Below are positions 20,944 to 54,863 of a DNA stretch of 64,000 nt, one piece after another. The position numbers were made by a program, and so were the translations under genes. The notes below the pieces were generated by a model. The model had not been told where the DNA came from. It saw only the letters and a program-made list of their open reading frames with translations, and ran no database searches. Within the stretch, counting starts at the first letter, position 1, and every line of letters starts with the position of its first letter. The stretch is from Tetracentron sinense (taxonomy: Eukaryota > Streptophyta > Magnoliopsida > Trochodendrales > Trochodendraceae), in contig CM026556.1 in the NCBI GenBank assembly GCA_015143295.1, positions 20,398,547-20,462,546 of the forward strand, read 5' to 3'.

Positions 20944-22696
20944 TGTTAGAACCTTATTAATTTGATTAATAAATACTTCTTAATCTATTGTGTATTCATT
21001 ATAGGTAATTGACCATGATCATGAGATGATCTATACGATATGAGATATCGATAAAGGTCCATAGGATATATTGTAGGAAAGTTATATGATTAGATTATCA
21101 CAGGTAGATATAACTTTCCGGTTCCTTATACCTTATATAGTCACAGCTGTGGGTGAAGCCAGAATGCTAAGATGTTCTCAATAGTTGAGATGTAGTTCTA
21201 TCTCGAACTATTGTAGTGGAGACTACACATTAGCATATGGGTGCTTAAATGTACACTGACTGATTGCATTTAATTAGAGACCTCTTGCATAAACATACTA
21301 TTAGATAGTTGGTCTCTCATTCACATTGAACGGTTTCGATGATCCTTATATCTGATGAGTTCATCTATGACTAGGTAGTGATCTGACTGTTTTGATTCCA
21401 CCAACGTATTTTCTAACTTAGGGAATACAATATAGTAACAGTTGGATAGTCAGAAAGTTGTTTGAGTCATGATGAACTTCAAACAAGAAATCCATGCTCA
21501 TTAATTTGAGAAATTATCCAAGTTCCGAGTAAGACAGTTGATTAAGTTCAAATCCTGCGTAGGTGATTTTAAAAACAAAATAAGTTTTAAAATATACTTT
21601 ATTAAAAGGTATTATACTTATAAAAGGATTTTTTCAAAATGTTTTTCATGAGAAATTGTTTCTTATGGTTTAATCATAAGTCTTGGAAACTTGGATGATT
21701 TGCAATGGGCTATGGGTTAGATAGTATGTCAGTCTCGAAGGCTCATTAGGGATAATGTATTTGGAAGGATAAATCAAATTTAAAAGTTCATGTGGCGGGA
21801 TCCGTAATGGTTAATGTTCATACACTGGGATTCAATTGGAACATGGATATCTCACGTCACTTGCAATTCCGATGTAATTCCCATTTAGGGTCAATGGGAT
21901 AACATTGGATAAGCCAGGGTAAGAATGTCCCAGAGCAATCTGTGGAGGTGCTCACATACGAAATACAAGCTCAATAATTGATTAAAAGTTAATCAATTAT
22001 TTAAATGATTGAAAGTTAATCATTTAATTAAATAGATTAAAAGTTAATCTATTGTTTAAATTAATTTTTAATTTATACTAAGGGATTATTTTAGTAATGA
22101 GTTGATTAACATAATTAAAGGGGAAATGAGTTTGACCCATATCCATAAACCCATTAAAATGGACCTTCAATATGGGCCAAAGCCCATGGGTTTAAACCTT
22201 AGGGTGGGGCGCCCGCTTGAGGAACCCTAATTGGATTAGGATTTGTTTAATTGAATAATTATTGAAATATAATTCCTTTTATTATGAAATTAAAATCCCT
22301 GTAGAGCCCCAGACTTTTTCATGCTTAATACATGACACTTTCGTGGTCATTTTGCCTTTAAAGAGTTATAATTAATAAATAAGGAAGAAATTGAAAATTC
22401 TGAAATATTAGAAATGTTCCTTTTCGAAGTACAAACCCAACGCAAGTTGAATCGTCAAAATCGGACGAACGAGTCAAAAGATATGGCCAAAACAGTCTGG
22501 ACCTGTAGGCAAGGACGTAGCTCGGTTACGCGCTAAGGACGTAGCTCGGTTATGCGCTAAGGACGAACTCTGATAACGAATACGTTGTGCATCCGTTGTG
22601 CAACAGACAACGGGTACATCGTGCAGCTCACAACGGGTACGTCGTGCAGCTCACCACGGGAACGTTGTACAGCACCACGGGCACGCTGTACATAAG

Positions 22697-22993
22697 ACAA
22701 CGGACAACGTGTTTGGTACTATTCACAACGGACAACGTGGTTGGTACTATTCACAACGGACAACGTGGTTGATACTATTCACAACGGACAATATGTTTGG
22801 CACTATTCACAATGGACAACGTGGTTGATACTATTCACAACGGACAACGTGGTTGATACTATTCACAACGGACAACGTGTTCAGCACTGTCCACAACGGG
22901 CAACGTGTTTGGCACTGTTCACAGCACCACGAGTTGGCACTGTTCACAGCACCACGAGTTGGCACTGTTCACAGCACAACGAGTTCGACACTC
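22697..22993 (+). repeat. AACGGACAACGT tandem array in the A 5' LTR
   Basis: By eye there are eight units of 28 bp built on AACGGACAACGTGTTTGGTA and similar, followed by two units of 25 bp with AGCACCACGAGTTGGCAC and a partial end unit. The array replaces the palindrome array found at this place in the related LTRs I and L. The 3' LTR copy is longer. Confidence 0.85.
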
Positions 22994-24419
22994 GTGTTTT
23001 TACAGAAATTTAGTAAGGGTGTTATGGTCTTTTGTCAGTTCACTATTACCTTAAGAGTTTAACCCGAGCCTTTAGGGCTCATTCTCAACACTTAGAGAGT
23101 TTGAAAGAATAGGAGAAGGGGAGAAGGCGATTCCAACCTAGGGTTTCCATTTTGGAGAGAAATCAAAGGGTTTGAAACCCTAGATCAACCTCAAGCCCGT
23201 TTTCTTCAAGATTTCGGTTCAGGCATTGTGGAGCTCGCGATCCAAGCTAGGGCAGCAACTCACAGTCATTCGGAAAGAGGGTTTCTTCCTCATTTCTTCA
23301 AGGTCGGTACTTCTTACTACCCTCCTAGTTATAGTTCCTCTTTCCCCTTCTTTTCTTTTGTTTTCCTTTCATTTACACATGTGCTATGAGATGGATGAAT
23401 GGTAAATGGTGAATGGTGAATGGTGAATGGAGATGGAATGGGCGATTGGATGCCAATGGTTGTGTGTGATGAAAAAATGGGGAAGGGCATTGTTCCAATA
23501 ATGAACATACATGTATGATTTGAGTAAAAACCCATCTAGAAAAGCATGTTGTAGGGTAAATCCATAATGAACATACCATGTTTGATGAAATGCCAAGGTG
23601 AATAAAGAAAGCTGTAAATTCGCAAGTGCATGCCTAATGAATTCTGAATATTGCTAGGGCCTATGATAGCGTGTTTCCTGCTTTCCCAAAATGCTATGAA
23701 TATTACATTACTCAATCTTTGATGCTATATGTGTTGTGAAATTACCCAAATGTCATCTTTAAATTGGAATGCAAGTATGTACACGGTTCCCACGAGCACG
23801 GAATGCATGGCATGATTTATCGAGGTTTTCAAGAACATGGTTAGAGGTGGGACATATCCTAAGATATGTTTTACCTCGCTTTTCACAAGAAGACAAGAAC
23901 CAACATTCCACGAGGGGTCTCCCCTCACTCACAAGTGCATATCATGAAGAAGGGCCTCCCTTCCCTCGCAAGTACATACATATCATGAAGAAGGGTCTCC
24001 CTTCCCTCACAAGTGCATTGCATAAAGAAGGGTCTCCCTTCCCTCTCAAGGCATCTCACAAGCGCATCTCACAAGTACATCTCACAAGAGAATCTCACAA
24101 GTTACATGATCACAAGCAAGCACGCATGACATGCATGACATGACACGACATTCAAGAATCAAGCAAGATAGACAAGACAAGCATTCAAGTACGAAAAGAT
24201 ATTTCAAGTCAAGTCAAGTGCACGATGTTTTCAAGAGGATTTATCGGCTTTCTACGAAATACAAGCATGATTATGAATTGATTTACTTCCTTGTATGATA
24301 TGAATTATTTACGCTTGACATATATGAATTGCTCCTGATTATGTATTGCCATTGTTATGCTATAATTTTTGGTTAGTATTTAGTACCTGCTGAGTATTCC
24401 ATGCTCAGCCGTACTTCTT

Positions 24420-24539
24420 ATGTCGGCAGGTTCTGAGGGAGCTGCTGCTCCATTTGATGTTTGTGCTCCTGGTCCATGGGTGGAAGAGGAGTACGTCGAG
24501 GAGCCTTTGGAGGAACCTCCCGTAGAGGGTTATCAGTAG
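24420..24539 (+). CDS. Short acidic LTR reading frame in A (5' LTR), 39 aa
   Basis: It starts MSAGSEGAAAPFDVC, then PGPWVEEEYVEEPLEEPPV, and stops at 24537. It is strongly acidic with one cysteine. I recognise no family. It lies 11 bp after the conserved hairpin and before the LTR end, so it would be in the U5 part of the RNA leader. The identical layout in I, L and C, with mostly synonymous differences, is the reason to list it. An alternative is that ATGTCGGCAG|GT is a splice acceptor and this is part of an exon. Confidence 0.4.
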   Translation: MSAGSEGAAAPFDVCAPGPWVEEEYVEEPLEEPPVEGYQ

Positions 24540-24846
24540 GTGGTATTAGATTCTGAGTGGATTAGCTGTGGGTGAGATGAGAGTTAGATTCATGTATTTT
24601 GGCAGGCATGTCCGCACTTTCTTTTGGAGACTTTTTGTATAAACTTGGATTTGCGTATGTATATACATAGAGGTTTGGTAGTCTTCCGCTGTGCTATGTT
24701 AGAGTATGTTTCCGCTGTTTATATCCTCTATTGTATATGCTCTGTGGGTTTTTGCAGGTTGGGTTGTCAAGCAAGTCATGAAATCCATGATTAGTCGTCC
24801 AAAGTTCACTCTAACTCCTAGGGTGGGTTTTGGGTCGCGACAGAAG

Positions 24847-24858
24847 TGGTATCAGAGC
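24847..24858 (+). other. Primer binding site of A (tRNA-iMet)
   Basis: TGGTATCAGAGC begins four bases after the 5' LTR and is complementary to the 3' end of plant initiator tRNA-Met, the usual primer of Ty3 elements. The 345 bp from here to gag have no coding sequence. Confidence 0.9.
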
Positions 24859-25203
24859 TTAGGCTTTAGGTCTCTAGGGTCACTTAGAATCTTATACCAC
24901 GGCTTGACAAGAGCATATGTCAGGAAACAAGTTAGGAGGAAAGTAAGTCGGAAGAGAGTCTTGATCCAAGTGTAAGACTAGACTTTAGTCTTAATCTAAA
25001 ATGGTTGCTTTAACCAAGTACGGGTCTTAGGTACGCTAGAACACTAAAGTATGAGTATAATGTGATGAATACTCTGATGACTTGATGTGATGTATATTAG
25101 TATTATACAACTAATACAAATTGAATTATTGTGAAATAACATTAAAATAAACTGTGGTTTCAAGTTAGACTCATGTGGTGCTATTGTTCTCAAGACTTTA
25201 GTC

Positions 25204-26452
25204 ATGAGGCGGGGCACACGGGGTCGCGGACCACACACCAGAGCTTCATCTTCTTCCAGAGATGAGGATGAGCAGCCGGACCTCTCTCAGGTCTTAGGCT
25301 CTATTGCTGAGACACTCGCCATACTGGCGGCTCGGCAGGCTATACCATCGTCGGCGGCACCTACTCCACCGCCCGCAGCTCCAGTACATCGTACAGCTGG
25401 AGTTGAGGCATTCAGGAGATTGAGGCCTCCACCATTCCATGGGAGTGTGGACCCTCTTGCTGCGGAGGCATGGATCCTCCAGATGGAGAAGATCTTTGCT
25501 GTCCTCTCGCCTACAGAGGAGGATAGAGTAGCATGGGCAGTTTTCATGCTAGAGGGTGAAGGCCACCATTGGTGGTTGTCCGCATTGAGGATGCGAGATC
25601 TGACCATGCAGGGTCTACCTTGGACTTGGGAGGAGTTCAAGGATACTTTTTACAAGAAGTATTTTCCGATTGGAGCACGGGAAAAGAAAGAGAGAGAATT
25701 CATCAACCTTGAACAAGGTTTGATGTCGGTGGCATAATACGAGGCCAAGTTCTCGGAGTTGTCGAGATTTGCGCCTCATATGGTTGCTACTGAGGCAATG
25801 AAGGCGAGAAGATTTGAGCAAGGGCTCAAGGATGTGATTATGGAGAAGGTTTCCGTTTTCAGGCATGCTACCTACCCTGAGGTAGTAGACAAGGCCTTAT
25901 TGGTCGAGACCAATTCAGAGACAGTGTCCAAGAAGAGGGAGTTGGTGAGAGGCCAATCCAGTGGTCCAACACCTCTAGAGAGTCGGGCCCGGACTGGTCT
26001 TTATCAGTATGCGTGGCCAGCACCACCGAAGAGGCCATCTTATGCGCCTCCAGCTTCCCGGCAGTATGTGCCTCAGGCGCCGAGACCTCAGGCTCTCCCA
26101 GCCCCACGGCCTGTTGCACCTCAGACGATGAGGTATGCTCCACCTCCGGCCCCTCCGACTTATGCACACGAGGTCTGCACTTCATGCGGCCGAAGGCACC
26201 CGGCAGGGGATTACTGAAGGGCATCGGGTGGATGTTTTCATTGTGGTTGCCAGGGCCATATGATCAGGGATTGCCCCAGTCGGCATTTACCAGGCCAGTC
26301 TCAGGGGATTAGGCCACCAGCACGCCCAGCAGGATCATATCAGGCGTCATCTCAGACTACCTGGTCTACACCTCAGTCTCGCCAGGCGAACCAGGGGCGA
26401 GTTTTTGCCTTAACAGAGGGTGATGCACTTGCATCTGACGATGTAGTGCAAG
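25204..26452 (+). pseudogene. gag: Element A gag with two internal stops
   Basis: Gag builds the particle and binds the RNA. The ATG at 25204 is followed by RRGTRGRGPHTR. The central gag domain has EAWILQMEKIF, FYKKYFPIG and YEAKFSELSRF. A proline/alanine-rich linker follows, then CTSCGRRH and a zinc knuckle CFHCGCQGHMIRDC at 26233-26274, and the end ASDDVVQG. The frame is continuous over 416 codons except for TAA at 25735 and TGA at 26215. The end at 26452 is a candidate splice donor (CAAG|GTACGC). Unspliced, the frame would stop three codons later. Confidence 0.85.
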
Positions 26453-26600
26453 GTACGCAGTTGTAACTTATTTAATCATCCGTAAATTAAACTGTTAAGT
26501 ATTAATTGATTGTGTACGTACTTGGCATGTTATATATGTATATATACCTACATGTATACACTGTTGATGCATGGATTAACTCCGCTAGTTAAAATTTCAG
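26453..26600 (+). other. Candidate gag-pol intron in A, 148 bp
   Basis: It starts GTACGCAG and ends ATTTCAG. It is AT-rich, contains in-frame stops and lies between DDVVQ-G and the protease. Removing it joins gag to pol with correct phase (phase 1). B and C have an equivalent interval at the same codon. Confidence 0.65.
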
Positions 26601-27819
26601 GAACCCTACTAGTCAATGAGTATTTGGCTCGAGTGTTGATTGATACCGGGTCTACTCATTCATTTGCCTCGCCGAGTTTTTCAGAAGACTTTTCTATAGA
26701 GCCAAGTCAGCTAGAACCGGAGTTAGCCATTTTGACTCCTCTTGGCAAAACAGTATTGGCACATAAAGTGTATAGAAATAGTATGGTCCAAGTTGGAAGC
26801 CACGAGTTAGCGGTTGATCTCATTGTCCTTGGATTCCAAGACTTTGATGTTATATTGGGAATGGATTGGTTAGCAGCACATCATGGGCATGTAGCTTGCT
26901 TTGAGAAAATGGTATTCTTCAAGCCAGTAGAAGGAAAACCATTCCACTTTCGCGGGTTGAAAAGTAGATCTATTGCTCGTTTTGCGGCGTTGAGCTTAGC
27001 TAACCCTGAGGCAAAGGACTCATCGACTATTCCGGTTGTGAGTGAATTCCTGGATGTATTTCCAGAGGAGTTGCCGGGATTGCCCCCAGATAGGGAGATT
27101 GAGTTTGTGATCGAGCTTGCACCAGGCACAGCTCCTGTTTTCAGAGCTCCATATAGAATGGCCCCTATTGAACTCAAGGAGTTGAAGACTCAGTTGGAGG
27201 AATTACAAGGCCTTGGCTTCATTCGACCAAGTGTCTCACCGTGGGGTGCCCCGGTGTTGTTTGTTAAGAAGAAAGATGGCTCGATGCGGATGTGTGTCGA
27301 TTACCGGCAATTGAACAAAGTCACTATAAAGAATAGGTATCCCTTGCCTAGGATTGATGACTTGTTCGATCAGTTGAAGGGAGCGAGATTTTTCTCAAAG
27401 ATAGATCTTCGATCGGGTTATCACCAGTTGAAGATTAAGGCGGAAGATGTTCCCAAAACTGCTTTTAGGACTCGGTATGGACACTACGAGTTCTTGGTGA
27501 TGCCTTTTGGACTCACGAACGCACCGGCAGCCTTTATGGATTTGATGAACCGGGTGTTCTGGCCATATCTTGATAGGTGCGTGATTGTATTTGTTGATGA
27601 CATTTTGGTCTATTCCCAGACACGGGAAGATCACACACGCGACCTATGCCTTGCTTTGGAAATGCTAAGAGAGCACAAGCTATACGCCAAACTTAGCAAG
27701 TGTGAGTTTTGGTTGGAAGAGGTGGCATTCCTAGGCCACGTTGTTTCTGCAGAAGGTATATCGGTAGATCCAAGGAAGATCGAAGCAGTTATGAGTTGGG
27801 CGAGGCCCAAGAGTGTTAC
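26601..27819 (+). pseudogene. pol: Element A pol, first part: protease and RT
   Basis: The protease active site is [11 protein letters not shown] near 26634. RT follows, with [45 protein letters not shown] (given here as separate motifs), [11 protein letters not shown] and the catalytic FVDD at 27590-27601. The frame is open up to the insertion of solo LTR K after PKSV. A start codon at 26510 lies in the intron-like gap and is probably not used. Gag-Pol fusion by splicing is the more likely route. The remainder of pol is at 31394-33504. Confidence 0.85.
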
Positions 27820-29184
27820 TGTAGAACCCCAGAAATTTGGTTCACTGTTCAAGTGAATAGTGCCGAGGACACTAGTATTGTAAGGGCCAAATGCCCTTAT
27901 TATAAGTTGGGTTTGGTTAATGAGGGTGAGGGTTTCCCTCATAGCCTAAGTGCGATGTGAGTTTCATGTTAGAATCAAGAAGTGTAAGGTGTTTTGAGAA
28001 AACATGCAAAGAGTATAAAACCATACTCAAAGCATTAAATGTATAGTGGTATGAATAATGTTGATTCAAGGGATTTGTGGCGGCCGGGGCCTCCCATGCA
28101 TATGGGTTGTGCCCAATAGGTTACCTCGGTTTGGTTTTAGAACCTATGGTCATGAGTTATGAGAATAGAAGTAGGGTGTGTAAAATACCCTAAGGGCTTA
28201 AAGGGTTGAAGGTGAATAGGGTTAGTGTACAATGCATTAAAAGGCTTAAGACCTACCATGTGTTCTTGATATTGGGGGAAGTGAAGTGAAGACTTTATAT
28301 GTGTATGTTGAGCCTCAAAACAAGAGTATAATAATACTCAAGTATTTAGGGTATAAAATACCATAAGTGTGAACGTAGAACCACCGGGAAACCATTTCAC
28401 AATGTTGTGAATAGCACCATGGGCACAAGTCTTGTAAAGGCCGAGGGCCATTTATGTGACTTGGTTAAGGGGCATGATAAGAGTAGTCAAAATTAGCTTA
28501 AGTGTTTATTTTTGGGTGTTTGGATGAATAAATAAGAGTATGACATACTCTAAGTGGGTAAAAACATGGGTATAAGGTACCCTAAGTGTTAATGAGTTAC
28601 GAGTGAATAGTGTTGTTACGCGAGGCATAACGAGACCGGGGCCTCTCATGCATGTTGGGGTGTGCCCCATGATCACCTAGGTATGTTAAAAACCTATGGA
28701 GTAATGAGTCATGAGGTGTTAGTATGGTTTTGGAACCGAAGGAAAGGAGTGTGAAACACTCGAAATGTTCTAAGTGTCAAGAATGGGAATGCCTTAGCAT
28801 ACCCTTGACTTTAAATAGCCCTACTGTTCACACCGCTCATCGGAATCAAGTGATTCTTGAATTTTTGGAAAGGTATTTAAACCCTCTTCTAGGTTCATGT
28901 TCACCATTTCTCTTGGTTATGAGTCGGGGATAGGTTAAAAGAAGGAATTCTGAAGTCGGACCGGGTGAAAATCTGGACTGACGAAACCCAGTTTCGGATC
29001 AGTCAGCTTTAGGGGCAATATGGTCCAATAAAAATAGAGAATTAGAAATTGTGTAAAACACAAAAGTTGTTCTCCTTCAAAATACGAATCCAATGCAAGT
29101 TGAATCGTCAAAATCGGACAAGCGAGTCAAAAGTTATGGCCGAGATACGAAAACGCAAAAATGCTGGAGCTTTCTGCAAAAGTT

Positions 29185-29414
29185 GCGATCGCTCGTAGGG
29201 ACCCTACGAACGATCGTAGCGGAGCTACGAACGATCGTAGAGTTGCTACGATCGATCGTAAAGCCCCAGAAAGTGCTGAAAACTCACGGGTGAAGCTACG
29301 ATCGATCGTAGAAAGCTACGATAGATCGTAAATCACTACGAACGATCGTAGATACGCGATTTTACTTTCTTGGATGCGATTTTTTAGGGGTTTTTCACCC
29401 CTTGCACTATAAAT
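29185..29414 (+). promoter_or_regulatory. K promoter: TACGATCGATCGTA array and TATA box
   Basis: About eight copies of TACGATCGATCGTA or TACGAACGATCGTA lie between 29185 and 29353. CTATAAATA follows at 29407-29415. The same array is present in both LTRs of C. Confidence 0.6.
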
Positions 29415-30529
29415 AGAGGACTTTAGGGGGTTTTTGGTTTACCCTAAACCAAGGAGAGTTCCTAGATAGAGAAGGAGAGGATCTTGAGCATTTCAAAGAG
29501 GGTTTTGATTTGGAATCAAGAAAAGCTTCAATCAAGGGTTTGATCTTCCCCACTCCAAGCTTAGATCACTTCCTTCAAGTAGGATCTTCCTCAATCAAGT
29601 AATGATTCCACTCAAGGGTTTCCTTCAACCTAGAAATTGATTCTAAGAGGTTAGTAAAACTACTATCTAGCTTTGTTATCATACATGGATGGGAAAAGAT
29701 GACCCAATAGGTGATTTAGCTTTACTAGGATGCCAAGATCTAAATGTGAATGAAAGTATGTTTGAATGGAATGTTAGTGATTCTACTTATCTAACTTTGG
29801 TATTGTCCAAAATATGAAAAGATGATAAAAAGGGGTTTATAAATTGGGGGTTTTTCTACATTATGATCAAATAGAAAAATAGTAGTTTATAAATTGGGGG
29901 TTTTTCAATAACAAGAATGAACATGGCTATACTTGTAAGTAAATGATAGTATCTCTAAATGAAACATGGTTTCAAGTATACTATGATACAAATATTAAGT
30001 GTGGGAATTTTGGGTGAACTAGAACATGATCAAACAAGTAAATAAGGGTTTATGATTTTGGGGTTTTCCAATGAAAGGGATGAATGTTGTTATGCTAGTG
30101 TGTAAGTATTATTATCCTCCAATAAACCATGATTTTAAGTGTGATATGATGAAGTAGGCTTAGAAGCCATGATTGTTATGATGTGATGCAATGAATGAAA
30201 TGTTCTACATTCTAGAATTGTCTAAGTATGCTATGATGCTAATATACCTTGTATGAACCATATGAGTTAATTAAGGTATTCAAGTATACTATAATGATCA
30301 TTATGCCTTGTATGAACATGTTTAATTAGTTAAAGCTTTCCACATAGATGTTATACTGCTCACAAGCACTCCACGCACGATAAGTATTGCACGACCGTGG
30401 TTTTCTCATAAGCATGAATTTCAAGAAATCATAAGAAGGGTTTTCAAAGGCATTCATAAGCAAGAAGCATAGATGCATAAGAGTTGACTAAGCCAAACTT
30501 TGGGTTGGCATTCTAAGATCGGTTACTTC

Positions 30530-30815
30530 ATGCTCACAAGGATCAAGTCTAAGATCTCGCATAAACTCCACGGATCATAAGTCTCGCAAGGCTTTTCAAG
30601 AACTCATAAGAAACTCACAAGTCTAAGATCTTGCATATGTCTCCAAGGAGAACAAGCTCACAAGGATCATAAGCTCACAAGAAGCTCACAAGTACTCATA
30701 AGCTCACAAGAAGCTCATAAGCTCACAAGTACTCACAAGCTCACAAGAACTCTAAGCTCACAAGAACTCATAAGAAAACACGAGGCTCACAAGCATTCAT
30801 AAGAACTCATAAGCA
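30530..30815 (+). repeat. GCTCACAAG-type short repeats in K
   Basis: Many copies of AAGCTCACAAG, AACTCATAAG and variants follow one another. The minus-strand counterpart is in the LTRs of C at about 42300-42460 and 61765-61925. It has no coding sense. Confidence 0.7.
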
Positions 30816-31393
30816 TACATGAGAGGGTTTGTTTTCCATGAAGAGAACAAGTTTTATGAAAGGTTTTTCATGACGGGTTTTAAGCATGGATTTGGTGATT
30901 TGTATTCTTTTACGCACTGTATTAAATATTGTGATTATGATAGCATTGTTAGCTAGTAGATTTTGCTCGCTGAGTATTCCATGCTCAGCCGTACATGTTA
31001 TGTCGGCAGGTACGCTATACGATACATGTACTCCGGTTCTTTGAAACGAGGCGACTGATGGGGAACAGGAGATTGCTCGGGTGGTCATCCAGATGTTGGG
31101 GGTTTGACACGTGACCCCATGGTTGGGAAGAGAGTGAGAGAGACATGTATTTTGGGTTTTATGTCTGGGGATATTGTATCACTTGAGTTTGCAACCCAGG
31201 TGAAGGATTGCTTGTACATGTTTCGGTTTCTATTCATTTATTGCAAATAGTTGTACTTGGAATACAGTTAAGTTATTAAAGAAATTTTCAGTTCACTATT
31301 TAGCTTGCCTTATATGCTTCCGCAGGATGATTGTATGGTAGGTAACGAGCCCAAATATAGCCTAACTCCTAGGTGGTATTTTGGGGCGTTACA

Positions 31394-33504
31394 GTTACCG
31401 AGATACGCAGCTTTCTTGGTTTGGCAGGCTACTACAGGAGATTCGTAGAGGGTTTCTCTAGCCTTGCAGCACTGCTCACTTACCTGACAAGGAAGAACGC
31501 CAAGTTTGTATGGAGTGATAAGTGCGAGATCAGTTTCACGGAACTGAAGAAGAGGCTTACTACAGCCCCTGTCCTTACTGTGCCATCTGGACCTTATGGG
31601 TATGAGGTGTATAGTGATGCCTCACACGTTGGACTTGGGTGTGTACTCATACAGCACAAGAAAGTCATTGCCTATGCATCGAGGCAATTGAAGGAGCATG
31701 AGAAGAATTACCCCACGCACGACTTAGAGCTTGCCGCAGTCGTGTTTGCACTCAAGATTTGGCGACACTACCTTTACGGGGTAGAATTCTATGTGTTCAC
31801 GGATCACAAGAGCCTCAAGTATCTCTTTTCCCAAAAAGAGTTAAATCTAAGGCAAAGGCGTTGGATGGAATTTCTGAAGGACTATGATTGTACCATTCAA
31901 TACCACCCGGGTAAAGCAAATGTAGTGGCTGATGCTTTGAGTAGAAAACCTCAGGGGTTGTTAGCACACATGTTGGTTCAAGAATGGAAGCTACTTGAAG
32001 ACTTGGAAAATCTAGACATTAGTGTGAATGACTCTGTCCATAGTCCTATCTTGGCAAATGTTACGGTTTGGCCATACATTTTAGATTTGATCCAAGAATA
32101 CCAAGCCACGGATGCTGAATTGTTGGCTTATCGGGACAAGGAAGTTGCTAAGGGTAGTGAGGACTTCTCTCTCACTAGTCGGGGTGCTATCACATTCAAG
32201 GGAAGGCTGTGCGTCCCAGCCAATGCAGATCTTCGAAGAGAGATTTTGGATGAAGCACACCGTTCGAAGTACACAGTGCATCCAGGGGGTACAAAGATGT
32301 ACCGGAACCTCAAGAGTCACTTTTGGTGGCGGAATATGAAGAGGGATGTTGCGGAATATGTAGCACGGTGCTTGGTGTGTCAACAGGTAAAAGCAGAACA
32401 CATGCGGCCCGCAGGTCTATTACAGTCCCTTCCGATTCCCGAGTGGAAATGGGAGAACATATCCATGGATTTCATAGTTGGCTTGCCAAAGACGACAAGG
32501 GGCTCAGATGCGATATGGGTAGTAGTGGATCGTTTGACAAAGTCCGCTCATTTCTTACCCTACTGTACTACCTTCAACTCTAGTCAGTTGGCTGCACTAT
32601 ACATCAAGGAAGTCGTTAGACTACATGGGGTGCCAGTCAGTATTGTGTCAGATCGGGATCCAAGATTCACATCACGATTTTGGAAAAGCTTCCAGGAGGC
32701 TATGGGTTCCCGACTTCATTTCAGCACCGCTTTTCATCCACAGACGGATGGACAAACCGAGAGAGTGAACCAAGTCATTGAAGACATGCTTCGGGCTTGT
32801 ATGTTGGATTTCAGAGGCAGTTGGGAAGAGCACTTGCCTTTGGTTGAATTTGCCTATAATAACAGCTATCAGGCAAGTATTCAAATGGCACCATTTGAGG
32901 CCTTGTATGGGCGAAGTTGTAGGTCTCCTCTCTATTGGGTGAGGTAGGAGAAAGGAAAGTACTTGGTCCGGAGTTGATTGAGCAAACTGCAAACACAGTT
33001 AAGATCATTCGGGATCGATTGAAAGCCACTCAAGATCACCAGAAAAGCTATGCGGACACACGCCGTAGGGACTTGGAATTTCAAGTAGGGGATCAAGTCT
33101 TTGTGAAAGTATCTCCTAGCAAAGGGATCATGAGATTTGGAAAGCGAGGCAAGCTCAGTCCTCGGTATGTTGGGCCTTTTGAGATTATCACACGAGTTGG
33201 TGAGGTTGCTTACAGGGTAGCTCTCCCACCTCACATGGCTGCAGTTCATAACGTCTTCCATGTGTCTATGCTTCGGAAGTACATTACGGATCCTTCGCAT
33301 GTCATAGACTTGGAACCGTTGGAGATTCGAGAGGATCTCACCTTGATTGAAAATCCGGGTCAGATTTTGGATCGAAGAGATCAGGTGCTTCGCAACAAGA
33401 CAATCCCTTTGGTTCTTGTACAATGGCAACACCATGCTCGGGAAGAAGCTACATGGGAGCGTGAAGCCGAAGTCAAAGCAAAGTACCCAGAATTAATTGA
33501 ATGA
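31394..33504 (+). pseudogene. pol: Element A pol, second part: RNase H, integrase, chromodomain-like tail
   Basis: RNase H shows [14 protein letters not shown] and [10 protein letters not shown]. Integrase shows the zinc-binding [11 protein letters not shown]...CLVCQQVK region and the acidic positions in [18 protein letters not shown] and the conserved TERVNQ. After an integrase-linked [19 protein letters not shown] stretch comes a short chromodomain-like end ([16 protein letters not shown]) of the Tekay type. A one-base loss near 32938 shifts the frame after SPLYW. The next frame carries the rest to the stop at 33502. The product would be non-functional. Confidence 0.85.
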
Positions 33505-33592
33505 GTTTTTGGAATGAGTTTGTATATGATTGTAATTTTCTTTTTGGTTTGTAATGCAAGTAGCGTCTAAATTTCGAGGATGAAATTTTTGT

Positions 33593-33605
33593 AAGGGGGG
33601 GAGGA
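33593..33605 (+). other. Polypurine tract of A
   Basis: AAGGGGGGGAGGA directly precedes the 3' LTR and would prime plus-strand DNA. The upstream AAATTTCGAGGATGAAATTT is shared with D and B (and with C on the minus strand). Confidence 0.9.
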
Positions 33606-36223
33606 TGTAGAGCCCCAGACTTTTTCATGCTTAATACATGACACTTTCGTGGTCATTTTGCCTTTAAAGAGTTATAATTAATAAATAAGGAAGAAATTGG
33701 AAATTTTGAAATGTTAGAAATGTTCCTTTTCGAAGTACGAACCCAACACAAGTTGAATGGTCAAAATCGGACGAACGAGTCAAAAGATATGGCCAAAACA
33801 GTTTGGACCTGTAGGCAAGGACGTAGCTCGGTTACGCGCTAAGGACGTAGCTCGGTTATGCGCTAAGGACGTACTCTGATAACGAATACGTTGTGCATCC
33901 GTTGTGCAACAGACAACGGGTACGTCGTGCAGCTCACAACAGGTACGTCGTGTAGCTCACCACGGGAACGTTGTACAGCACCACGGGCACGCTGTACATA
34001 AGACAACGGACAACGTGTTTGGTACTATTCACAACGGACAACGTGGTTGGTACTATTCACAACGGACAACGTGGGTGATACTATTCACAACGGACAACGT
34101 GTTTGGTACTATTCACAACAGACAACGTGGTTGATACTATTCACAACGGACAACGTGTTTGGTACTATTCACAACGGACAACGTGGTTGATACTATTCAC
34201 AACGGACAACGTGTTCAGCACTGTCCACAACGGACAACGTGTTTGGCACTGTTCACAGCACCACGAGTTGGCACTATTCACAGCACCACGAGTTGGCACT
34301 GTTCACAGCACCACGAGTTGGCACTGTTCACAGCACCACGAGTTGGCACTGTTCACAGCACAACGAGTTCGACACTCGTGTTTTTACAGAAATTTAGTAA
34401 GGGTGTTATGGTCTTTTGTCAGTTCACTATTACCTTAAGAGTTTAACCCGAGCCTTTAGGGCTCATTCTCAACACTTAGAGAGTTCGAAAGAATAGGAGA
34501 AGGGGAGAAGGCGATTCCAACCTAGGGTTTCCATTTTGGAGAAAAATCAAAGGGTTTGAAACCCTAGATCAACCTCAAGCCCGTTTTCTTCAAGATTTCG
34601 GTTCAGGCATTGTGGAGCTCGCGATCCAAGCTAGGGCAGCAACTCACAGTCATTTGGAAAGAGGGTTTCTTCCTCATTTCTTCAAGGTCGGTACTTCTTA
34701 CTACCCTCCTAGTTATAGTTCCTCTTTCCCCTTCTTTTCTTTTGTTTTCCTTTCATTTACACATGTGCTATGAGATGGATGAATGGTAAATGGTGAATGG
34801 TGAATGGTGAATGGTGAATGGAGATGGAATGGGCGATTGGATGCCAATGGTTGTGTATGATGAACAAATGGGGAAGGGCATTGTTCCAATAATGAACATA
34901 CATGTATGATTTGAGTAAAAACCCATCTAGAAAAGCATGTTGTAGGGTAAATCCATAATGAACATACCATGTTTGATGAAATGCCAAGGTGAATAAAGAA
35001 AGCTGTAAATTCGCAAGTGCATGCCTAATGAATTCTGAATATTGCTAGGGCCTATGATAGCGTGTTTCCTGCTTTCCCAAAATGCTATGAATATTACATT
35101 ACTCAATCTTTGATGCTATATGTGTTGTGAAATTACCCAAATGTCATCTTTAAATTGGAATGCAAGTATGTACACGGTTCCCACGAGCACGGCATGCATG
35201 GCATGATTTATCGAGGTTTCCAAGAACATGGTTAGAGGTGGGACATATCCTAAGATATGTTTTACCTCACTTTTTACAAGAAGACAAGAACCAACATTCC
35301 ACGAGGGGTCTCCCCTCACTCACAAGTACATATCATGAAGAAGGGCCTCCCTTCCCTCACAAGTACATACATATCATGAAGAAGGGTCTCCCTTCCCTCG
35401 CAAGTGCATTGCATAAAGAAGGGTCTCCCTTCCCTCTCAAGGCATCTCACAAGCGCATCTCACAAATACATCTCACAAGAGAATCTCACAAGTTACATGA
35501 TCACAAGCAAGCACGCATGACATGACACGACATTCAAGAATCAAGCAAGTAGACAAGACAAGCTTTCAAGTATGAAAAGATATTTCAAGTCAAGTCAAGT
35601 GCACGATGTTTTCAAGAGGATTTATCGGCTTTCTACGAAATACAAGCATGATTATGAATTGATTTACTTCCTTGTATGATATGAATTATTTCCGCTTGAC
35701 ATATATGAATTGCTCCTGATTATGTATTGCCATTGTTATGCTATAATTGTTGGTTAGTATTTAGTACCCGCTGAGTATTCCATGCTCAGCCGTACTTCTT
35801 ATGTCGGCAGGTTCTGAGGGAGCTGCTGCTCCATTTGATGTTTGTGCTCCTGGTCCATGGGTGGAAGAGGAGTACGTCGAGGAGCCTTTGGAGGAACCTC
35901 CCGTAGAGGGTTATCAGTAGGTGGTGTTAGATTCTGAGTGGATTAGCTGTGGGTGAGATGAGAGTTAGATTCATGTATTTTGGCGGGCATGTCCGCACTT
36001 TCTTTTGGAGACTTTTTGTATAAACTTGGATTTGCGTATGTGTATACATAGAGGTTTGGTAATCTTCCGCTGTGCTATGTTAGAGTATGTTTCCGCTGTT
36101 TATATCCTCTATTGTATATGCTCTGTGGGTTTTTGCAGGTTGGGTTGTCAAGCAAGTCATGAAATCCATGATTAGTCGTCTAAAGTTCACTCTAACTCCT
36201 AGGGTGGGTTTTGGGTCGCGACA
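33606..36223 (+). mobile_element. Element A 3' LTR
   Basis: It is 2618 bp, the same as the 5' LTR with scattered substitutions and a longer AACGGACAACGT array (about 34005-34375). By eye the array has nine 28-bp units and four 25-bp units against eight and two. The leader hairpin is at 35771-35789. The short reading frame is intact at 35801-35920 (MSAGSEGAAAPFDVC..., 39 aa). Confidence 0.95.
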
Positions 36224-41701: not shown

Positions 41702-44337
41702 TGTCACGACCCAAAATACCCCCTGGGAGTTAGGGATACTTTGGCTCGTGATGTGCCATATCCGATACCAAACCATCCTGTAATAACATCCAAGTCATGA
41801 CAAACATAATCATGAATAAGGCGGAAGCTTAAACCAATGTGCGGAAGCGTAATCCAAAAATTTCTTTTCTATACATGCTGTGTATTCCAAGTTTGTACAT
41901 ACATCACAAAAGTAAAGGTGGACATGCCCACCTATCAAAATACAAAATGATAATACTCTCTCTCTCTCTCTATGTAATCACTCTAAAAGGGCCAGTGGTC
42001 TAAGTCATTTGACTCCTCCTGAGGCTCTACATATGGCTCCTCCTCGCCATAATCCTCCTCTATCTAGGGCCCCTGATCACAGATGTCAAATGGAGTCCGT
42101 GTACCTGTCGACATAACATGTACGGCTGAGCATGGAATACTCAGCGAGCAAAATCTACTAGCTAACAATGCTATCATAATCACATATTTTATACAGTGCG
42201 TAAAAGAATACAAATCACCAAAATCCATGCTTAAAACCCGTCGGGAAAAACCTTTCATAAAACTTGTTCTTTTCATGAAAAACAAACCCTCTCATGTATG
42301 CTTATGAGTTCTTATGAATGCTTGTGAGCCTCGTGTTTTCTTATGAGTTCTTGTGAGCTTAGAGTTCTTGTGAGCTTGTGAGTACTTGTGAGCTTATGAG
42401 CTTCTTGTGAGCTTATGAGTACTTGTGAGCTTCTTGTGAGCTTATGATCCTTGTGAGCTTGTTCTCCTTGGAGACATATGCAAGATCTTAGACTTGTAAG
42501 TTTCTTATGAGTTCTTGAAAAGCCTTGCGAGACTTATGATCCGTGGAGTTCATGCAAGATCTAGACTTGATCCTTGTGAGCGTGGAGTAACCGATCTTAG
42601 AATGCCAACCCAAAGTTTGGCTTAGTCTATGCTTATGCATGTATGCTTCTTACTTATGAATGCCTTTGAAAATCCTCTTATGTTTTCTTGAAAATTCATG
42701 CTTATGAGAAAAACCACGGTCGTGCAATACTTATCATGCGTAGAGTGCTTGTGAGCATTATAACATCTATATGGAAAGCTTTAACTAATTAAACATGTTC
42801 ATGCAAGGCATAATGATCATTATAGTATACTTGAAGACCTTAAGTAACTCATATGGTTCATACAAGGTATATTAGCATCATAACATACTTAAACAATTCT
42901 AGAATGTAGAACATTTCATTCATTGCGTCATATCATAACAATCATGGCTTCTAAGCCTAATTCATCATATCACACTTAAAATCATGATTCCTTGGAGGAT
43001 ATTAACAGTTACTTGCACTTATAGTCATATTCACCCTTTTATTGGAAAACCCCCAAAATCTTAAATCCTTATTTGCTTATTTGAACATAATCAAGTTCAC
43101 CCAAAATCCCTTGTTTGTCATTGCATCATAGTATACTTAAAATCATGGTTCATTTAAAGGTATTACAATTTTCTTACAAGTTTAGCCATATTCATCCTTA
43201 TTATTGAAAAACCCCCAATTTGTAAAACCTTATTTGATTGTTTATTCATGATCTAGTTCACCCAAATTTCCACACTTCCTATTTGTATCATAATAGAATT
43301 AAAATCACCTATTTGAATCATCTTTGTATGATAACAAGGCTAGATAGTAGTTTACTAACCTCTTTGGATCAATTTCTAGGTTGAAGAAACCCCTTGAGAA
43401 ATCCTCACTTGATTTGGGGAAGATCCAACCCTTGATTGAAGCTCTTCTTGGTTTCAAGCAAAACCCTCTTTGGAATGCTCAAGATCCTTTCCTTCTCTTT
43501 TTAGGAACTCTCCTTGGTTTAGGGTAACCCAAAAACCCTCCTAAAGTCTTCTATTTATAGTGTAAGGGGTGAAAAACCCCTAAAAAATCGCATCCAAGAA
43601 AGTAAAATCGCGTATCTACGATCGTTCGTAGCGATTTACGATTGATCGTAGCCTTCTACGATCGATCGTAGCTTCCTACGATCAATCGTAGTTTCACCCG
43701 AGAGTTTCCAGCATTTTTGGGGCTTTACGATCGATCGTAGCAACTCTACGATCGTTCGTAGCTCCGCTACGATCGTTCGTAGGGTCCCTACGAGCGATCG
43801 CAACTTTTGCAGAAAGCTTCAGCATTTTTGCGTTTTCGTATCTTGGCCATAACTCTTTGACTCGCTTGTCCAATTTTGACTATTCAACTTGCGTTGGATT
43901 CTTCTTTCGAAGGAGAACAACTTTCATGTTTTTCACAACCTCCAATTCTTCCTTTTTATTGGACCATTTTGCCCCTAAACCTGACTGATCCGAAATTGGG
44001 TTTCGTCAATCCAGATTTTAAACCGACCCGACTTCAGAAATCGATCTTTTGATCTAACACCAACTCAAAAACAAGACAAGTGATCAACATGAACCCCGAA
44101 GAGGGTTCAATTACCTTTCCAAAAATCAAAGAATCGCTTGATTCCGACGAGCGGTGTAAACGCTAGGGCTATTTAGAGTCGAGGGTATGCCAAGGCATAA
44201 CCCTTGTCAATACTCAAGAGTATTCTATACTCTTGCCTATTTCATTCCAAACACCCATACACCATAAATACATTCTTACATGCTTTAGTATATGATATCA
44301 TTCGTCGCACATGGCCATCAAGATCCGGGGTTCTACA
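41702..44337 (-). mobile_element. Element C 3' LTR
   Basis: It is 2636 bp, on the minus strand TGTAGAACCCCGGATC...GGGTCGTGACA. It has a TACGATCGATCGTA array (43615-43805) and a TATA box (CTATAAATAG on the minus strand, 43551-43560), GCTCACAAG-type repeats and the leader hairpin (42126-42144). The short reading frame starts at 42114 (MSTGTRTPFDIC) but has a TAG at the core tryptophan (about 42064). Confidence 0.9.
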
Positions 44338-44387
44338 TCCTCCCCCCCTTACAGAAATTTTGTCCTCGAAATTGGAACGATACATAG
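44338..44387 (-). other. Polypurine tract and 3' end of C internal region
   Basis: On the minus strand AAGGGGGGGAGGA (44338-44350) adjoins the 3' LTR and is preceded by ATTTCGAGGACAAAATTTCT, as in A and B. Solo LTR J splits the untranslated sequence from the pol stop. Confidence 0.85.
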
Positions 44388-46265
44388 TGTAGAGCCCCGA
44401 AATTTCATTTCACTAAGAATGAATAGTGTGTGAATAGTGCGCAAGTGTGGTTTTGTACACTTATGAGTCTTATGTTAATATATGTGTTTGGAATTATGGC
44501 GTATATGTTCCAATGGGTCTATATGTCCTTAGGGAATGTGTTGAAAAGCATAAAAGAGTGTTGGAAGTGCATTGGGGAAGATTCGAGTGGTGTGAACAAG
44601 GTTTTTCAGCAAAACAGGGGTCGACTGATCGCTCGGTCATTACCTGCGATCGATCGGTCAACTACCAATCGCTCGATAGCTGTCGCACGGTCAACTTTTT
44701 TGTATGGGAAAAAATTTCAGAGAGTGTGTTTTTGACCGATCTCTCGGTCATAACACCGATCGACCGGTAAGCCACCGATCGCTCGGTCCATACCACCGAT
44801 CGATCGGTCATACGCAGATTTTCTTCATTAAGGGTATTTAAGACTTTAACCATCACCCTTTGCCTATAAAAGGGCTGGGTTCGTGCCTTAGGGTTTCACA
44901 AACCCTTTGTGCATTGTTTTTGAGGGATTTGAAGAGGAGAAGGAGGAGAGGACCTTGGTGATCGTTCAAGCTTGTGGAAGATCAAGTTCTTCCTTTCCAT
45001 TTGGTGTTTTCCAACCAAGAACTCACTGTTCTTGCTTGTTCCAACCATTGGGAGTCAAACTCATTGATTTCTCTAAGGTAGATACACTCTACTACAATCT
45101 TGCAATCCTACTAGTTACTAATTATGATTCTTCTTATCTATGCCCTATCTATATGTATTGGATTTATGTATGAAAAGGTGTGATTATATACTTGGATGAA
45201 GGTTACTATTATGATGCACTCTAAGTGTTTGATAAAATACCTCTAAGGGATTCTATGCTTAAATACGATGATTTCTCTTATTAAGTGCATATGCTCGCAT
45301 GTCTCGCATAAACCGATGGTTTCCATGGATTTCTCAAAGTACAAACAAGGATTTTTCACCAAAAAGACGAATAATGAATGATTCTAAGTAACTCTATGAT
45401 TTCTCTAAGATCGTTTCACAAGCTCTAAGGATCATACCATGCTCACAAGGAAACTCTATGATAATGCTCTAAGATCGTCTCACAAGCTCCACGGATCACA
45501 ATGAAATGCTCTAAGATCTCTAAGGTTATGCTCTATGGAAATGCTCTACGGTATTGCTCTATGCTCTATGTCTCTACGGATCATAATGACTCTAAGTAAC
45601 TCCATGAACTCACAAGAACTCATAAGGCTATGATTATCGATTGACTCACACGGTTACAGTTTTGGTTTCGAATATTATCTCACTTACGTTTTCACGGTTT
45701 CCATGCTTTAAGGAATTTACGGATTTCATTCTCCATGTCTTGTATGCTCCATGCCTAACCGCTTTATTGTTATTAGTTTGTATACACTGAGTATTCCATG
45801 CTCAGTCGATATTGTTATGATCGGCAGGTGCTCGGGTTCCATTCGATTTGTGTGGCGAAGAACCTTGGGTCGAGGAAGAGTACCGTGACCCGGAGCCTTC
45901 CATGGATCACTATCATGACGATGGTGCTTTAGATAGGAGTCGTGACTTCGATTTCTGTTGATCGATCGACTTAGAACTTGTGTCATTTTGTTATGTGAGT
46001 GTGGGGTTTGTCCACTCCACTTTTGGGTTTCTCACACATGTATACTTGTTGGTTCTTACTTGAGCCAAGTTATAGGAGTATTCATTTTGCTTCCGTTATG
46101 TTTAGTATTTTATTTTCCGCTGTGCATTGTATTTCGTTTCCGCTATGTATATTCAGGTACTCTGACAGGTTTCCACGTGTGCCTTATGTATCATACTGGA
46201 GGTATGATATGGCGGTCACGAGTCAAAGTACCCTTAACTCCTAGGGGGTATTTTGGGTCGCGACA
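44388..46265 (+). mobile_element. Solo LTR J in element C
   Basis: It is 1878 bp, starts TGTAGAGCCCC and ends GGGTCGCGACA, with CATAG at 44383-44387 and 46266-46270. It is nearly identical to H minus I. It has a CCGATCGATCGGT array (44620-44820), a TATA box (TATAAAA, 44865-44871), a possible splice donor TAAG|GTAGATAC (45077/45078), CTCTAAGATCGT-type repeats (about 45405-45580), and the leader hairpin (45787-45805). Confidence 0.9.
45827..45961 (+). other. Short acidic LTR frame in J without a start codon
   Basis: The frame reads GARVPFDLCGEEPWVEEEY, then RDPEPSMDHYHDDGAL, and ends DFDFC before TGA at 45959. It matches the core of the other LTR frames. But the usual ATGTCGGCAGGT is ATGATCGGCAGGT, which puts a TGA in frame just upstream. 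If it is translated here, it must be joined by splicing at GGCAG|GT. Confidence 0.35.
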
Positions 46266-46299
46266 CATAGAGATTATAAAGAACAAAATTACATAAACA

Positions 46300-47485
46300 T
46301 CACTCAAACAAATTAGGATATTTTTCCTTCACTTCCGCTTCGCGCTCCCATGTAGCTTCTTCTCGTGAATGGTGTTGCCATCGAACAAGAAGCAAGGGGA
46401 TGACCTTATTGCGCAAGACTTGATCCCTACGGTCCAAAATTTGAACTGGCTCTTCCACCAAAGTGAGATCCTCTCGGACTTCTAGCGTATCAAGGTCGAT
46501 CACATGAGAAGGATCCGGAATATATTTCCGAAGCATAGATACATGGAATACGTTGTGAACCGCCGCCATGTGAGTGGGTAGAGCAACCTGGTATGCAACT
46601 TCACCAATTCGGGTGATAATTTCAAATGGACCAACATACCTCGGGCTGAGCTTTCCTCTTTTGCCAAACCTCATAACACCCTTTGTCGGTGAAACCTTCA
46701 CAAATACCATATCGCCAATACGGAACTCAAGATCTCGTCTACGGGTGTCGGCATAGCTCTTTTGCCTGTCCTGAGCCGTCTTTAATCTCTCTCTGATGAT
46801 CTTGACTTTATTCGTAGTTTGTTCATTCAATTCCGGGCCCAATATCTTTCTCTCTCCAACTTCATCCCAGTATAGGGGAGATCTACAACTTCGACCATAC
46901 AAGGCCTCAAAAGGAGCCATTTGGATGCTCGCCTGATAGCTGTTATTGTAGGCGAATTCCACCAATGGCAAGTGATCCTCCCAACTGCCTTTGAAGTCCA
47001 ACATGCAATCTCGGAGCATGTCCTCTATAACCTGGTTCACCCTCTCGGTCTGTCCATCTGTCTGAGGATGAAAGGCGGTGCTAAAGTCCAAACGGGAACC
47101 CATAGCGCTCTGAAAGCTTTTCCAGAACCTGGAAGTGAATCTTGGATCCCTGTCTGACACGATACTGACTGGCACCCCGTGCAACCGAACCACTTCTTTG
47201 AGGTATAATTCTGCAAGTTGGTTCGAGTTGAACGTAGTCCGATAAGGCAAGAAATGGGCGGATTTTGTCAAACGATCAACCACTACCCATATTGCATCCG
47301 ATTTCTTTGTCGTTTTTGGCAACCCAGTGATGAAATCCATGGAGATGTTCTCCCATTTCCACTCGGGAATAGGGAGGGATTGTAAAAGACCTGCTGGCCT
47401 CATATGCTCGGCCTTCACTTGTTGGCATACCAAGCATCTTGACACATACTCGGCAACTTCCCTCTTCATATTCCGCCACCAAAAT
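46300..47485 (-). CDS. pol: Element C pol, last part: integrase and chromodomain-like tail
   Basis: This open stretch of about 390 codons carries the CLVCQQVK end of the zinc-binding region, [18 protein letters not shown] and TERVNQ of the integrase core, the [19 protein letters not shown] region and a short chromodomain-like end ([16 protein letters not shown]) closing at 46300. It is intact in itself but cut from the rest of pol by element B. It cannot be expressed alone in a useful form. The other part is at 57300-59444. Confidence 0.85.
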
Positions 47486-49884: not shown

Positions 49885-49888
49885 GAGG

Positions 49889-49900
49889 TGGTATCAGAGC
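49889..49900 (+). other. Primer binding site of B (tRNA-iMet)
   Basis: TGGTATCAGAGC starts four bases after the LTR. The leader from here to 50185 is non-coding. It contains two copies of CTCAAGGCATTAGG...CTTTGGGCTAAG and ends CTTCTTCTTCTCAG at 50175, a good splice acceptor ten bases before the gag ATG. Confidence 0.9.
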
Positions 49901-50185
49901 TCAAGGCATTAGGTTCCCTTGGGCTAAGTTGTCCTCTCAGTAGGAGTTATGTTTATGTCACTCCGGGTTTGATACCAGAGGATATCAATCAGTGCTCAAG
50001 GCATTAGGGTCCTTTGGGCTAAGGTATTAAGTATAGGATATGGGAAGATGTTACCTTAGGGAAGCAACATCAAGTTCAGGACTTTAAAATTGTTGAGGAT
50101 TGAGTTTTGGTTTAAGTGTAGACTCAGGAATTTTATGTGGGGGTGTTCCTAAATAAGTTGTCTTCTTCTTCTCAGGCTTATAGAT

Positions 50186-51375
50186 ATGAGGAGAGGCGGA
50201 AGAAATAATAGGAATGGAGGAGGTAGTGTGACTGATGGGGATACTACAGACGGTACCCCCCAGGCGAATATGGGTCGGGCCATGGAAGCTATTGCAGCAG
50301 CCATGGAGAGGCAGGCTGAAATTATGGCTCAGCAAACTGCATTACTAGCGGCAGGTCAAGCTAGGCAAGAGAGACAGATTGATGTTCACCCACCCCGTCA
50401 CAACGGAGTGGAAGCTTTTAGGAGAATGAGTCCTCCAGCCTTCTATGGTAGTACGGATCCCTCAGTTGCCGAGTTATGGATCATGCAACTAGAGAAGATT
50501 TTCACCGTGCTTGAGGCTACCGATGAGCAGAGGGTGAAATGGGCCTCATTCGTCATGGAAGGTGAAGCGGAGCATTGGTGGAGAGCAGCATCTAGGCAGA
50601 GGAATGAGGTGCGAGCCGGACAAGAGTGGACATGGGGAGAGTTCCTCGACATCTTCTACGAGAGATACTTCCCGGTGTTTGTGAGAGATCAGAAGGAGAT
50701 TGAATTCTCTACCTTGGAGCAAGGGAGGATGTCAGTGGCCGAGTATGAGGCCAAGTTTGTAGAGCTTTCTAGGTTCGCTCCTCACTTGATTGCTACGGAG
50801 AGAATGAAAGCAAAGAGGTTTGAGCGAGGTTTGAAGGATTTTATTCGGGAGAAAGTTTCGATACTTCAGCTCGAGACATGTAGGGAGGTGTATCGGCGTG
50901 CTCTGATAGCTGAGAAGAATTCACAGGAATTGTTGAAGAAGAGGGAGAAGTTGCAAGCAGGTAGGTTTGGTCCTCAGGACAAGAGGCCAAGGGTGTCGGG
51001 TCCTATGCCGATTGCTAGGCCTACCCCTTATCAGAGGCCGACTCAGGTAGCCCCACGAGCAGCTCAGGTGGCTCCGCCTACTACTGGCATTCAGCTGTTT
51101 GATGCATGCCGCCAGTGCGGAAAGACACAGAGTAGGAGAGTGTAGGGCAATTACAGGAGGCTGTTTTCATTGTGGAGATGTTTCACACCGGATCCGAGAT
51201 TGCCCACTCCGCTTTCAGCTGACTCAGCCACAGGGAGTCAGGCCCCCAGGTAGGCAGTCCACACAGCAGAGGCCACCACAGGGTCCTAGACCTCAACAGC
51301 CTCACCAGCCAGCTCAGGGTCGAGTGTTTGCTACCTCGAAGCGGGATGCACAGGCGTCCGACGATGTTGTGCAGG
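50186..51375 (+). pseudogene. gag: Element B gag with one frameshift
   Basis: The ATG is followed by RRGGRNNRNGG. The gag domain has LWIMQLEKIF, FYERYFPVF and EYEAKFVELSRF. A proline-rich linker follows, then CRQCGK, where the frame shifts at about 51120. The other frame carries GECRAITGGC and the zinc knuckle CFHCGDVSHRIRDC, and ends ASDDVVQG at 51375. Reading the first frame gives a stop at 51143, so Gag would lose its zinc knuckle. The frameshift lies at a run of purines and is more likely a mutation than a programmed site, as A and C do not share it. Confidence 0.85.
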
Positions 51376-51510
51376 GTACGTTTAATTGTGCTTTAGTCAA
51401 TTAAAATATTTTTCTGATGCTATGTGTGTGATATTAAATGTTATGTGGTAAGATGTAAGATGCATGTATGTATTCATGATTTGACAAATTAGCTTTGTGT
51501 ATTAATTCAG
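51376..51510 (+). other. Candidate gag-pol intron in B, 135 bp
   Basis: It starts GTACGTTTAA and ends ATTAATTCAG, with stops in all useful frames. It is placed at the same codon (the glycine of VVQG) as in A and C. Splicing leaves protease in phase with the zinc-knuckle frame of gag. Unspliced RNA would end Gag nine residues later. Confidence 0.65.
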
Positions 51511-54833: not shown

Positions 54834-54863
54834 GGTACGTAATTTCGAGGGCGAAATTCTTTT

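Follow-up and report, generated by a model that had tools for sequence, protein, structure and literature searches.

Several long terminal repeat (LTR) retrotransposons of plants are already known to use introns, among them Ogre, BARE, EVD and CRR, the last of which is a chromovirus of rice. Ogre, a Ty3/gypsy element of the Tat lineage, is described with a partially spliced intron between protease and reverse transcriptase (RT) (PMC6317226); in the Ty1/copia elements BARE1 and EVD, Gag-Pol is translated from unspliced and Gag from spliced RNA (PMC3735527, PMC12786077); and in the centromeric Ty3/gypsy element CRR, splicing removes rt and creates two open reading frames (ORFs) (PMC3735527). Bianca (Ty1/copia) has two ORFs with a gap averaging 172 base pairs (bp) (PMC6317226), and the chromoviruses of Beta have a single continuous gag-pol frame and a tRNA-Met primer site (PMC3605345). 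A 2025 review counts Ogre and EVADE among the notable exceptions to the general lack of introns in plant LTR elements (PMC12786077). Here we describe three Ty3/gypsy elements, A, B and C, found in a stretch of 64,000 nucleotides of the Tetracentron sinense genome (assembly GCA_015143295.1, contig CM026556.1, positions 20,398,547 to 20,462,546, forward strand; called the window, in which the positions of A, B and C are counted), each of which carries a GT...AG interval at the border between gag and protease. An intron at the gag–protease border of a plant chromovirus was not found among the top-ranked matches listed from the open-licence literature, judged mostly by titles and the beginnings of abstracts.

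The interval is most probably (a joint figure of roughly 0.86 for all that follows in this sentence) a partially spliced spliceosomal intron of a clade of chromodomain Ty3/gypsy elements, whose spliced and unspliced RNAs are both reverse-transcribed, whose retention sets the ratio of Gag to Gag-Pol, and whose spliced-RNA copies have founded no large lineages. It would work like the Ogre intron in being partially spliced, but it is found in a chromodomain clade and at the gag–protease border, and it is known from genomic copies that lack the interval, whereas the Ogre intron is known from RNA. Assignment to an Ogre-type element was rejected, because the interval precedes the protease, which is in one frame with RT. 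As in BARE1 and EVD, alternative splicing in a plant LTR element would separate Gag from Gag-Pol; however, the roles of the RNAs would be inverted, the unspliced form giving Gag and the spliced form Gag-Pol. The short-GAG system of BARE and EVD was rejected as well, since removal of the interval joins gag and protease in one frame. CRR resembles the present clade as a chromovirus with spliced transcripts, but an intron at the gag–protease border is unmentioned in the available parts of PMC3735527. Bianca likewise has two ORFs parted by a short gap, but it belongs to the copia superfamily, and splicing of the gap is undescribed in the available parts of PMC6317226. The continuous chromoviruses, namely the Beta families and 30 loci of T. 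sinense (L031-L060), have the same domain order as A, B and C, and L031-L060 share the RVP_2 protease; they differ from the interval-bearing clade in their one uninterrupted gag-pol frame. A continuous gag-pol frame in related elements had been stated in a preliminary description of the window, and this holds for the T. sinense genome and for the Beta chromoviruses (PMC3605345).

The interval of element A lies at 26453..26600 (plus strand; 148 bp, GTACGC...TTTCAG), that of B at 51376..51510 (plus strand; 135 bp, GTACGT...TTCAG) and that of C at 59445..59581 (minus strand; 137 bp, GTACGT...CACAG), and all three are of phase 1; interval-less copies are known for the A subfamily. These coordinates and lengths, the GTACG donors and the CAG acceptors are as given in the preliminary description, and its placing of the break at the Gly codon of DDVVQG was found to be correct. 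One Gly codon is split G/Gx in each element, with one base before and two after the interval, and the residues on either side, translated separately, give DDVVQ-G-TLLV in A, DDVVQ-G-SLLI in B and DDVVQ-G-VLLV in C. Divided by three, the interval lengths leave remainders of 1 (A), 0 (B) and 2 (C), so that only the length in B is divisible, as had been noted, and stops are present in all three frames inside each interval. The AT content is 0.66-0.73 in the intervals against 0.41-0.57 in their flanks, that is, A+T-rich as in plant introns, and the interiors of the three intervals align with one another little above shuffled sequences. Near the acceptor, where a branch point would be expected, words of the form yTRAy occur at -37 to -17 in five of seven introns, such words being frequent by chance in AT-rich DNA. 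A donor-context pattern allowing up to 3 mismatches has three matches in the window, compared with 0.02 expected.

The protease profile Pfam RVP_2 is contiguous over the junction in all three elements, which bears out the claim that exact removal puts the protease in frame. The 21 residues upstream of the interval match RVP_2 positions 4-23 in A, B and C, with E-values of 0.18, 0.046 and 0.063, respectively, which are weak singly, the register being identical three times, and the downstream frames match the profile with Gly at position 24 (register counted by hand). The separate matches thus abut at the Gly, so that exact removal restores the profile three times with no residue gained or lost. 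In the continuous elements of the T. sinense genome, the first two dozen or so RVP_2 positions are the end of gag. Chance GT and AG ends were rejected on the agreement of position, phase, RVP_2 register and the genome-wide counts given below.

When the interval is retained, the frame stops after 4 (A), 9 (B) and 2 (C) codons. The earlier statement that retention stops Gag within ten residues therefore stands for these three elements and is too narrow for the family, in which the stop comes after 2-45 codons in 48 of 49 further copies, and one copy, L002, stays open. Altogether, retained RNA gives no continuous gag-pol in 51 of 52 copies, and so splicing would be needed for a fused enzyme part.

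In the whole assembly (1.16 Gb, 1,479 contigs), the 21-base donor context has 5,809 exact matches (2,899 + 2,910), compared with none for the reversed pattern. Because CAR GGT ACG could equally encode the Gln-Gly-Thr of a continuous frame, 30 donor places (the first 30 listed, all on contig C1) were read through. In the 29 copies extending into exon 2, the interval is always present and measures 124-168 bp; the acceptor AG stands at the expected place in 25 of them (L023, which has no exon 2, was excluded from the acceptor counts and the trees). Twenty other copies were chosen by their acceptor, hand-picked among 100 listed exact matches of 3,156, so that the donor could be read without selection bias on the donor itself; GTACG was found in all 19 that have an exon-1 end (L104, in which no such end was found, was excluded from the donor counts and the trees). 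Among these 19 copies, pairwise diversity is 0.000 in GTACG, 0.30 at +6 to +12 and 0.158 in the intron interior, and it is 0.03-0.045 at first and second and 0.08-0.14 at third codon positions. That is, the intron interior drifts at least as much as third codon positions while the donor is fixed. T(+2) and G(+5) are among the fixed bases, although a stretch with a coding role only would have them at free wobble positions. Four of four further B copies read GTACGT...CAG, with 133-135 bp.

Splicing of the interval, together with occasional reverse transcription of the spliced RNA, would be expected to leave genomic copies that lack exactly that interval. Such junctions, with up to 3 mismatches, are present at 63 places, two of them doubtful: 47 are of A type (13 without mismatch), 14 of L020 type (including the doubtful L125 and L126) and two of B type (L133 and L134, which are mutually alike). 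The reversed-pattern controls gave no match in the genome, and junctions one base short and three bases short, at the same tolerance, gave 0 and 0. Sequence was fetched for all 63 places, and 58 of the 61 A- and L020-type copies were placed in a tree together with 50 interval-bearing rows, after removal of the interval columns and three columns per side (L117, L125 and L126 were left out for a long branch or an unrelated upstream part, and the B-type L133 and L134 were read outside the tree). The trait requires 32 changes in this tree, and well-supported (starred) branches force no fewer than 23 of these. With shuffled labels the mean is 35.9 changes, and 55 of 500 shuffles were as low as 32; the scatter of the losses is close to that of random labels. 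They form 44 loss-only clades (32 single copies, 10 pairs and 2 trios), the largest having three members, and neighbour pairs on one contig (L092/L139, L071/L143 and L072/L145) may be local duplications. Recombination could carry a junction from one copy to another and so inflate the change count, yet it would not create the exactness. Splicing of the interval, as first proposed from the window, is thus supported by interval-less junctions scattered through the tree.

The ends were checked in three loss copies. In two of them the paired LTRs are 95.9% and 96.3% alike, a primer-binding site (PBS) is present, mismatched in one of the two, and the 5-bp target duplications read ACTAG and TCATC; from these sequence features both are best explained as ordinary retrotransposition products made from spliced RNA; the third, L065, has a 3' LTR and no 5' LTR within the stretch fetched. 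Copies with the interval must have come by way of unspliced RNA and those without it by way of spliced RNA; both RNAs therefore existed and were copied. On the genome data, exact GT...AG excision and the reverse transcription of both RNA forms can be regarded as demonstrated. The acceptor context of the A type, taken with the exon-2 bases of the junction pattern, has 3,156 matches against 47 interval-less junctions, about 67 to 1, a rough ratio as the two patterns are unlike in length and make-up, and spliced RNA would accordingly be a rare or poorly propagated template. The doubtful L125 and L126 (G000:C13:23954290-23954816 and 24139351-24139877) combine an interval-less junction with an unrelated upstream part, and may be either chimeric or members of a sister family with a continuous frame.

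In the mechanism that we propose, unspliced full-length RNA would be both the genome and the Gag messenger; it is taken for the latter because translation would end short of the protease, between a few and about 45 codons into the intron, and its Gag would end soon after DDVVQGT. The spliced RNA would be translated as one Gag-Pol, and the efficiency of splicing would set the ratio between the two. Control of the Gag to Gag-Pol ratio is the best reading of what the genome sequence alone can tell, and the intron probably serves to make more Gag than enzyme. Copies of spliced RNA would insert yet found no large lineages, either through loss of the Gag excess or through a preference for unspliced RNA as the packaged template. 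The repeated losses without larger loss-only clades suggest that an intron-less element does not prosper by itself. Intact relatives that lose the splice sites and still multiply had been named beforehand as evidence against ratio control by splicing; a weak form of this was found, in that losses are many, and loss-only clades hold at most three copies. A more far-reaching and quite tentative idea, which we find somewhat less likely to be right than wrong, is that the intron is a requirement at the level of the lineage, with intron-less offspring inserting but founding no family. Retention may then double as the Gag message and as an export or packaging mark or a signal carrier, and the prevalence of intron-bearing A-type copies would follow.

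A genuine intron spliced by the host could also be without a regulatory role, that is, a neutral passenger gained once, with the RNA left mostly unspliced through weak splicing. The effect on Gag and Pol is an inferred one, and interval-less copies do insert, as such a passenger would allow. We regard this as improbable, however, since retained RNA lacks a continuous gag-pol in nearly all copies, since the splice sites persist between subfamilies whose protease-RT (pro-RT) proteins are only 73-82% alike, while the interiors in A, B and C have diverged almost to the level of shuffles, and since exact losses recur without ever giving loss-only clades of more than three.

Several observations weigh against a regulated, partially spliced intron. 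A, B and C are all broken copies: A has two stops in gag, and an insertion plus a later frame change in pol; B has a frame change in gag and one stop in pol; and C has one stop in gag and the insertion of B in pol. Interval-less copies flanked by LTRs exist, so that one round of copying is possible without the intron, the functions for which may be supplied in trans. Neither the donor-chosen nor the acceptor-chosen sample is random, and the shifted-junction controls were limited to two shifts. The retained frame of L002 has no stop over the 70 codons read, and 16 of the 49 sampled copies, L002 included, read at least 16 codons into the interval. Four of the 29 donor-chosen copies reaching exon 2 have CAT or CAA in place of an acceptor AG, and, among 17 donor-chosen A copies, the aligned CAG columns have a diversity of 0.08; the latter is probably an alignment shift, as each of the 17 rows itself ends in CAG. 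L002 (G000:C1:5773412-5773432, minus strand) has an interval of 168 bp with a TA-rich expansion, and its gag reads into protease unspliced.

It is very unlikely that the interval-less copies are remnants of an ancestral continuous element instead of splicing products. Continuous families are indeed present in the genome, and L125 and L126, with their unrelated upstream part, lie outside the sampled subfamilies. However, many interval-less copies are inside young subfamilies, the closest pair of an interval-less and an interval-bearing copy (L065 and L003) being 0.7% apart, and some carry the exon bases of their own subfamily, as does L069 in common with L005 and L024. One ancestral form would give one clade, in contrast to the forced changes in the tree, a number which recombination could inflate.

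In a search with PF08284, the top matches among the best 150 of 14,809 candidates span profile position 2-5 to 130-132 unbroken, and these 150 are filled by continuous families and so unable to reveal interval-less copies of the interval-bearing clade. In the 30 continuous loci fetched, ...VVEGTFLVYN or a similar sequence runs on uninterrupted by an interval; a few of them have a stop. In a pro-RT tree of the rows that were long enough (15 of 33 interval-bearing copies and 18 of 30 continuous loci), the interval-bearing clade stands apart from the continuous rows with a support of 100/99; as the two sets came from different queries, exceptions could be hidden in this tree alone. Pro-RT protein identity is 73-82% among the interval-bearing subfamilies A, B, C, L020 and L026, compared with 54-63% between these and the four continuous rows compared. 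With the protease of B as a query, which is blind to the interval, the open frame is at most 1,124 amino acids in all of the best 150 of 19,700 candidates (50 of them at 1,110-1,124 by hand count), and none is of gag-pol length, whereas continuous families reach open frames of 1,450-1,550 amino acids; an interval-less copy with an early break in gag could be hidden among these 150. The simplest reading of these sequences is a single gain of the intron at the base of the interval-bearing clade.

Hardly credible is the view that the interval stays unspliced and pol is reached by re-initiation at an AUG inside it, by ribosomal bypassing or by frameshifting: 24 of 49 anchored copies have a pol-frame AUG after the last stop within the interval and six of 49 have no pol-frame stop there, but such an AUG is lacking in 25 of 49, B and C included, the interval length modulo 3 is variable, every frame of the interval is stopped in A, B and C, and the interval-less junctions and the invariant GTACG would be left unexplained.

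Element A (22300..36223, plus strand) has LTRs at 22300-24842 and 33606-36223 (94.8% alike), the PBS TGGTATCAGAGC at 24847 and the 5-bp target duplication ATCCC. Its gag frame up to the donor (25135..26452, plus strand) contains Retrotrans_gag, a CCHC knuckle and DDVVQ, with two in-frame stops; its second exon (26601..27819, plus strand) encodes protease (RVP_2) and RT and is broken by an insertion at 27820-31393; and its pol continues at 31394..33501 (plus strand) with RNase H, integrase and chromodomain in two overlapping frames. Element B (47486..57294, plus strand), which sits in the pol of C, has LTRs at 47486-49884 and 54877-57294 (98.0%), a PBS at 49889 and the target duplication AAAAT; its gag up to the donor (50153..51375, plus strand) has one frame change ahead of the donor, and its second exon (51511..54833, plus strand) encodes protease, RT, RNase H and integrase, with one in-frame stop at 52767-52769. 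Element C (41702..63821, minus strand), which contains B, has LTRs at 61166-63821 and 41702-about 44337 (97.5%), a PBS at 61161 and the target duplication TACTA; its gag up to the donor (59582..60920, minus strand) has one in-frame stop, and its second exon (57295..59444, minus strand) encodes protease, RT and RNase H, pol-like sequence resuming at 46300-47485 past element B. The order of gag, protease, RT, RNase H and integrase, with LTRs, PBS and target duplication, is whole in A and B, and C was scanned short of the integrase end. The chromodomain PF00385, in a scan that covered A and B, is above the cut-off in A (E-value 4.2e-6) and below it in B (19.9 of 25.1 bits). The primer site TGGTATCAGAGC is common to all three elements, and we take it to be of the tRNA-Met type. 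The clade is presumably Tekay, judging by motif and LTR length.

Both LTRs of A contain a 28-bp repeat unit (22641-23041 and 33947-34375), whose copy number seems to differ between them. Within the insertion in the pol of A are stretches that match the LTR of C at 84-92% and run in the opposite direction; the insertion may be a solo LTR or a set of nested LTRs. The region 11830-15998 of the window resembles a solo LTR with the target duplication AGTTA and encloses an A-like LTR (about 78%; 12476-14762, minus strand). Elsewhere in the genome, B-type pol copies recur at a spacing of about 7.4 kb (three in a row at G000:C18:32182634-32198064 and two at G000:C1301:77002-85073), as expected of tandem elements sharing LTRs.

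To our knowledge, it is unclear how plant chromoviruses with a continuous frame make an excess of Gag. A large chromovirus clade appears to solve this problem by intron retention at the gag–protease border, and its splicing is recorded in the genome itself, where it can be read without an RNA experiment. In annotation, such copies may be mistaken by gene finders and element classifiers for broken or two-ORF elements. The recurrent exact losses amount to a replicated natural experiment on whether ratio control is dispensable to an LTR retrotransposon, and, if the intron is indeed a requirement of the lineage, the T. sinense genome would hold dozens of natural knock-outs of the Gag:Pol switch.
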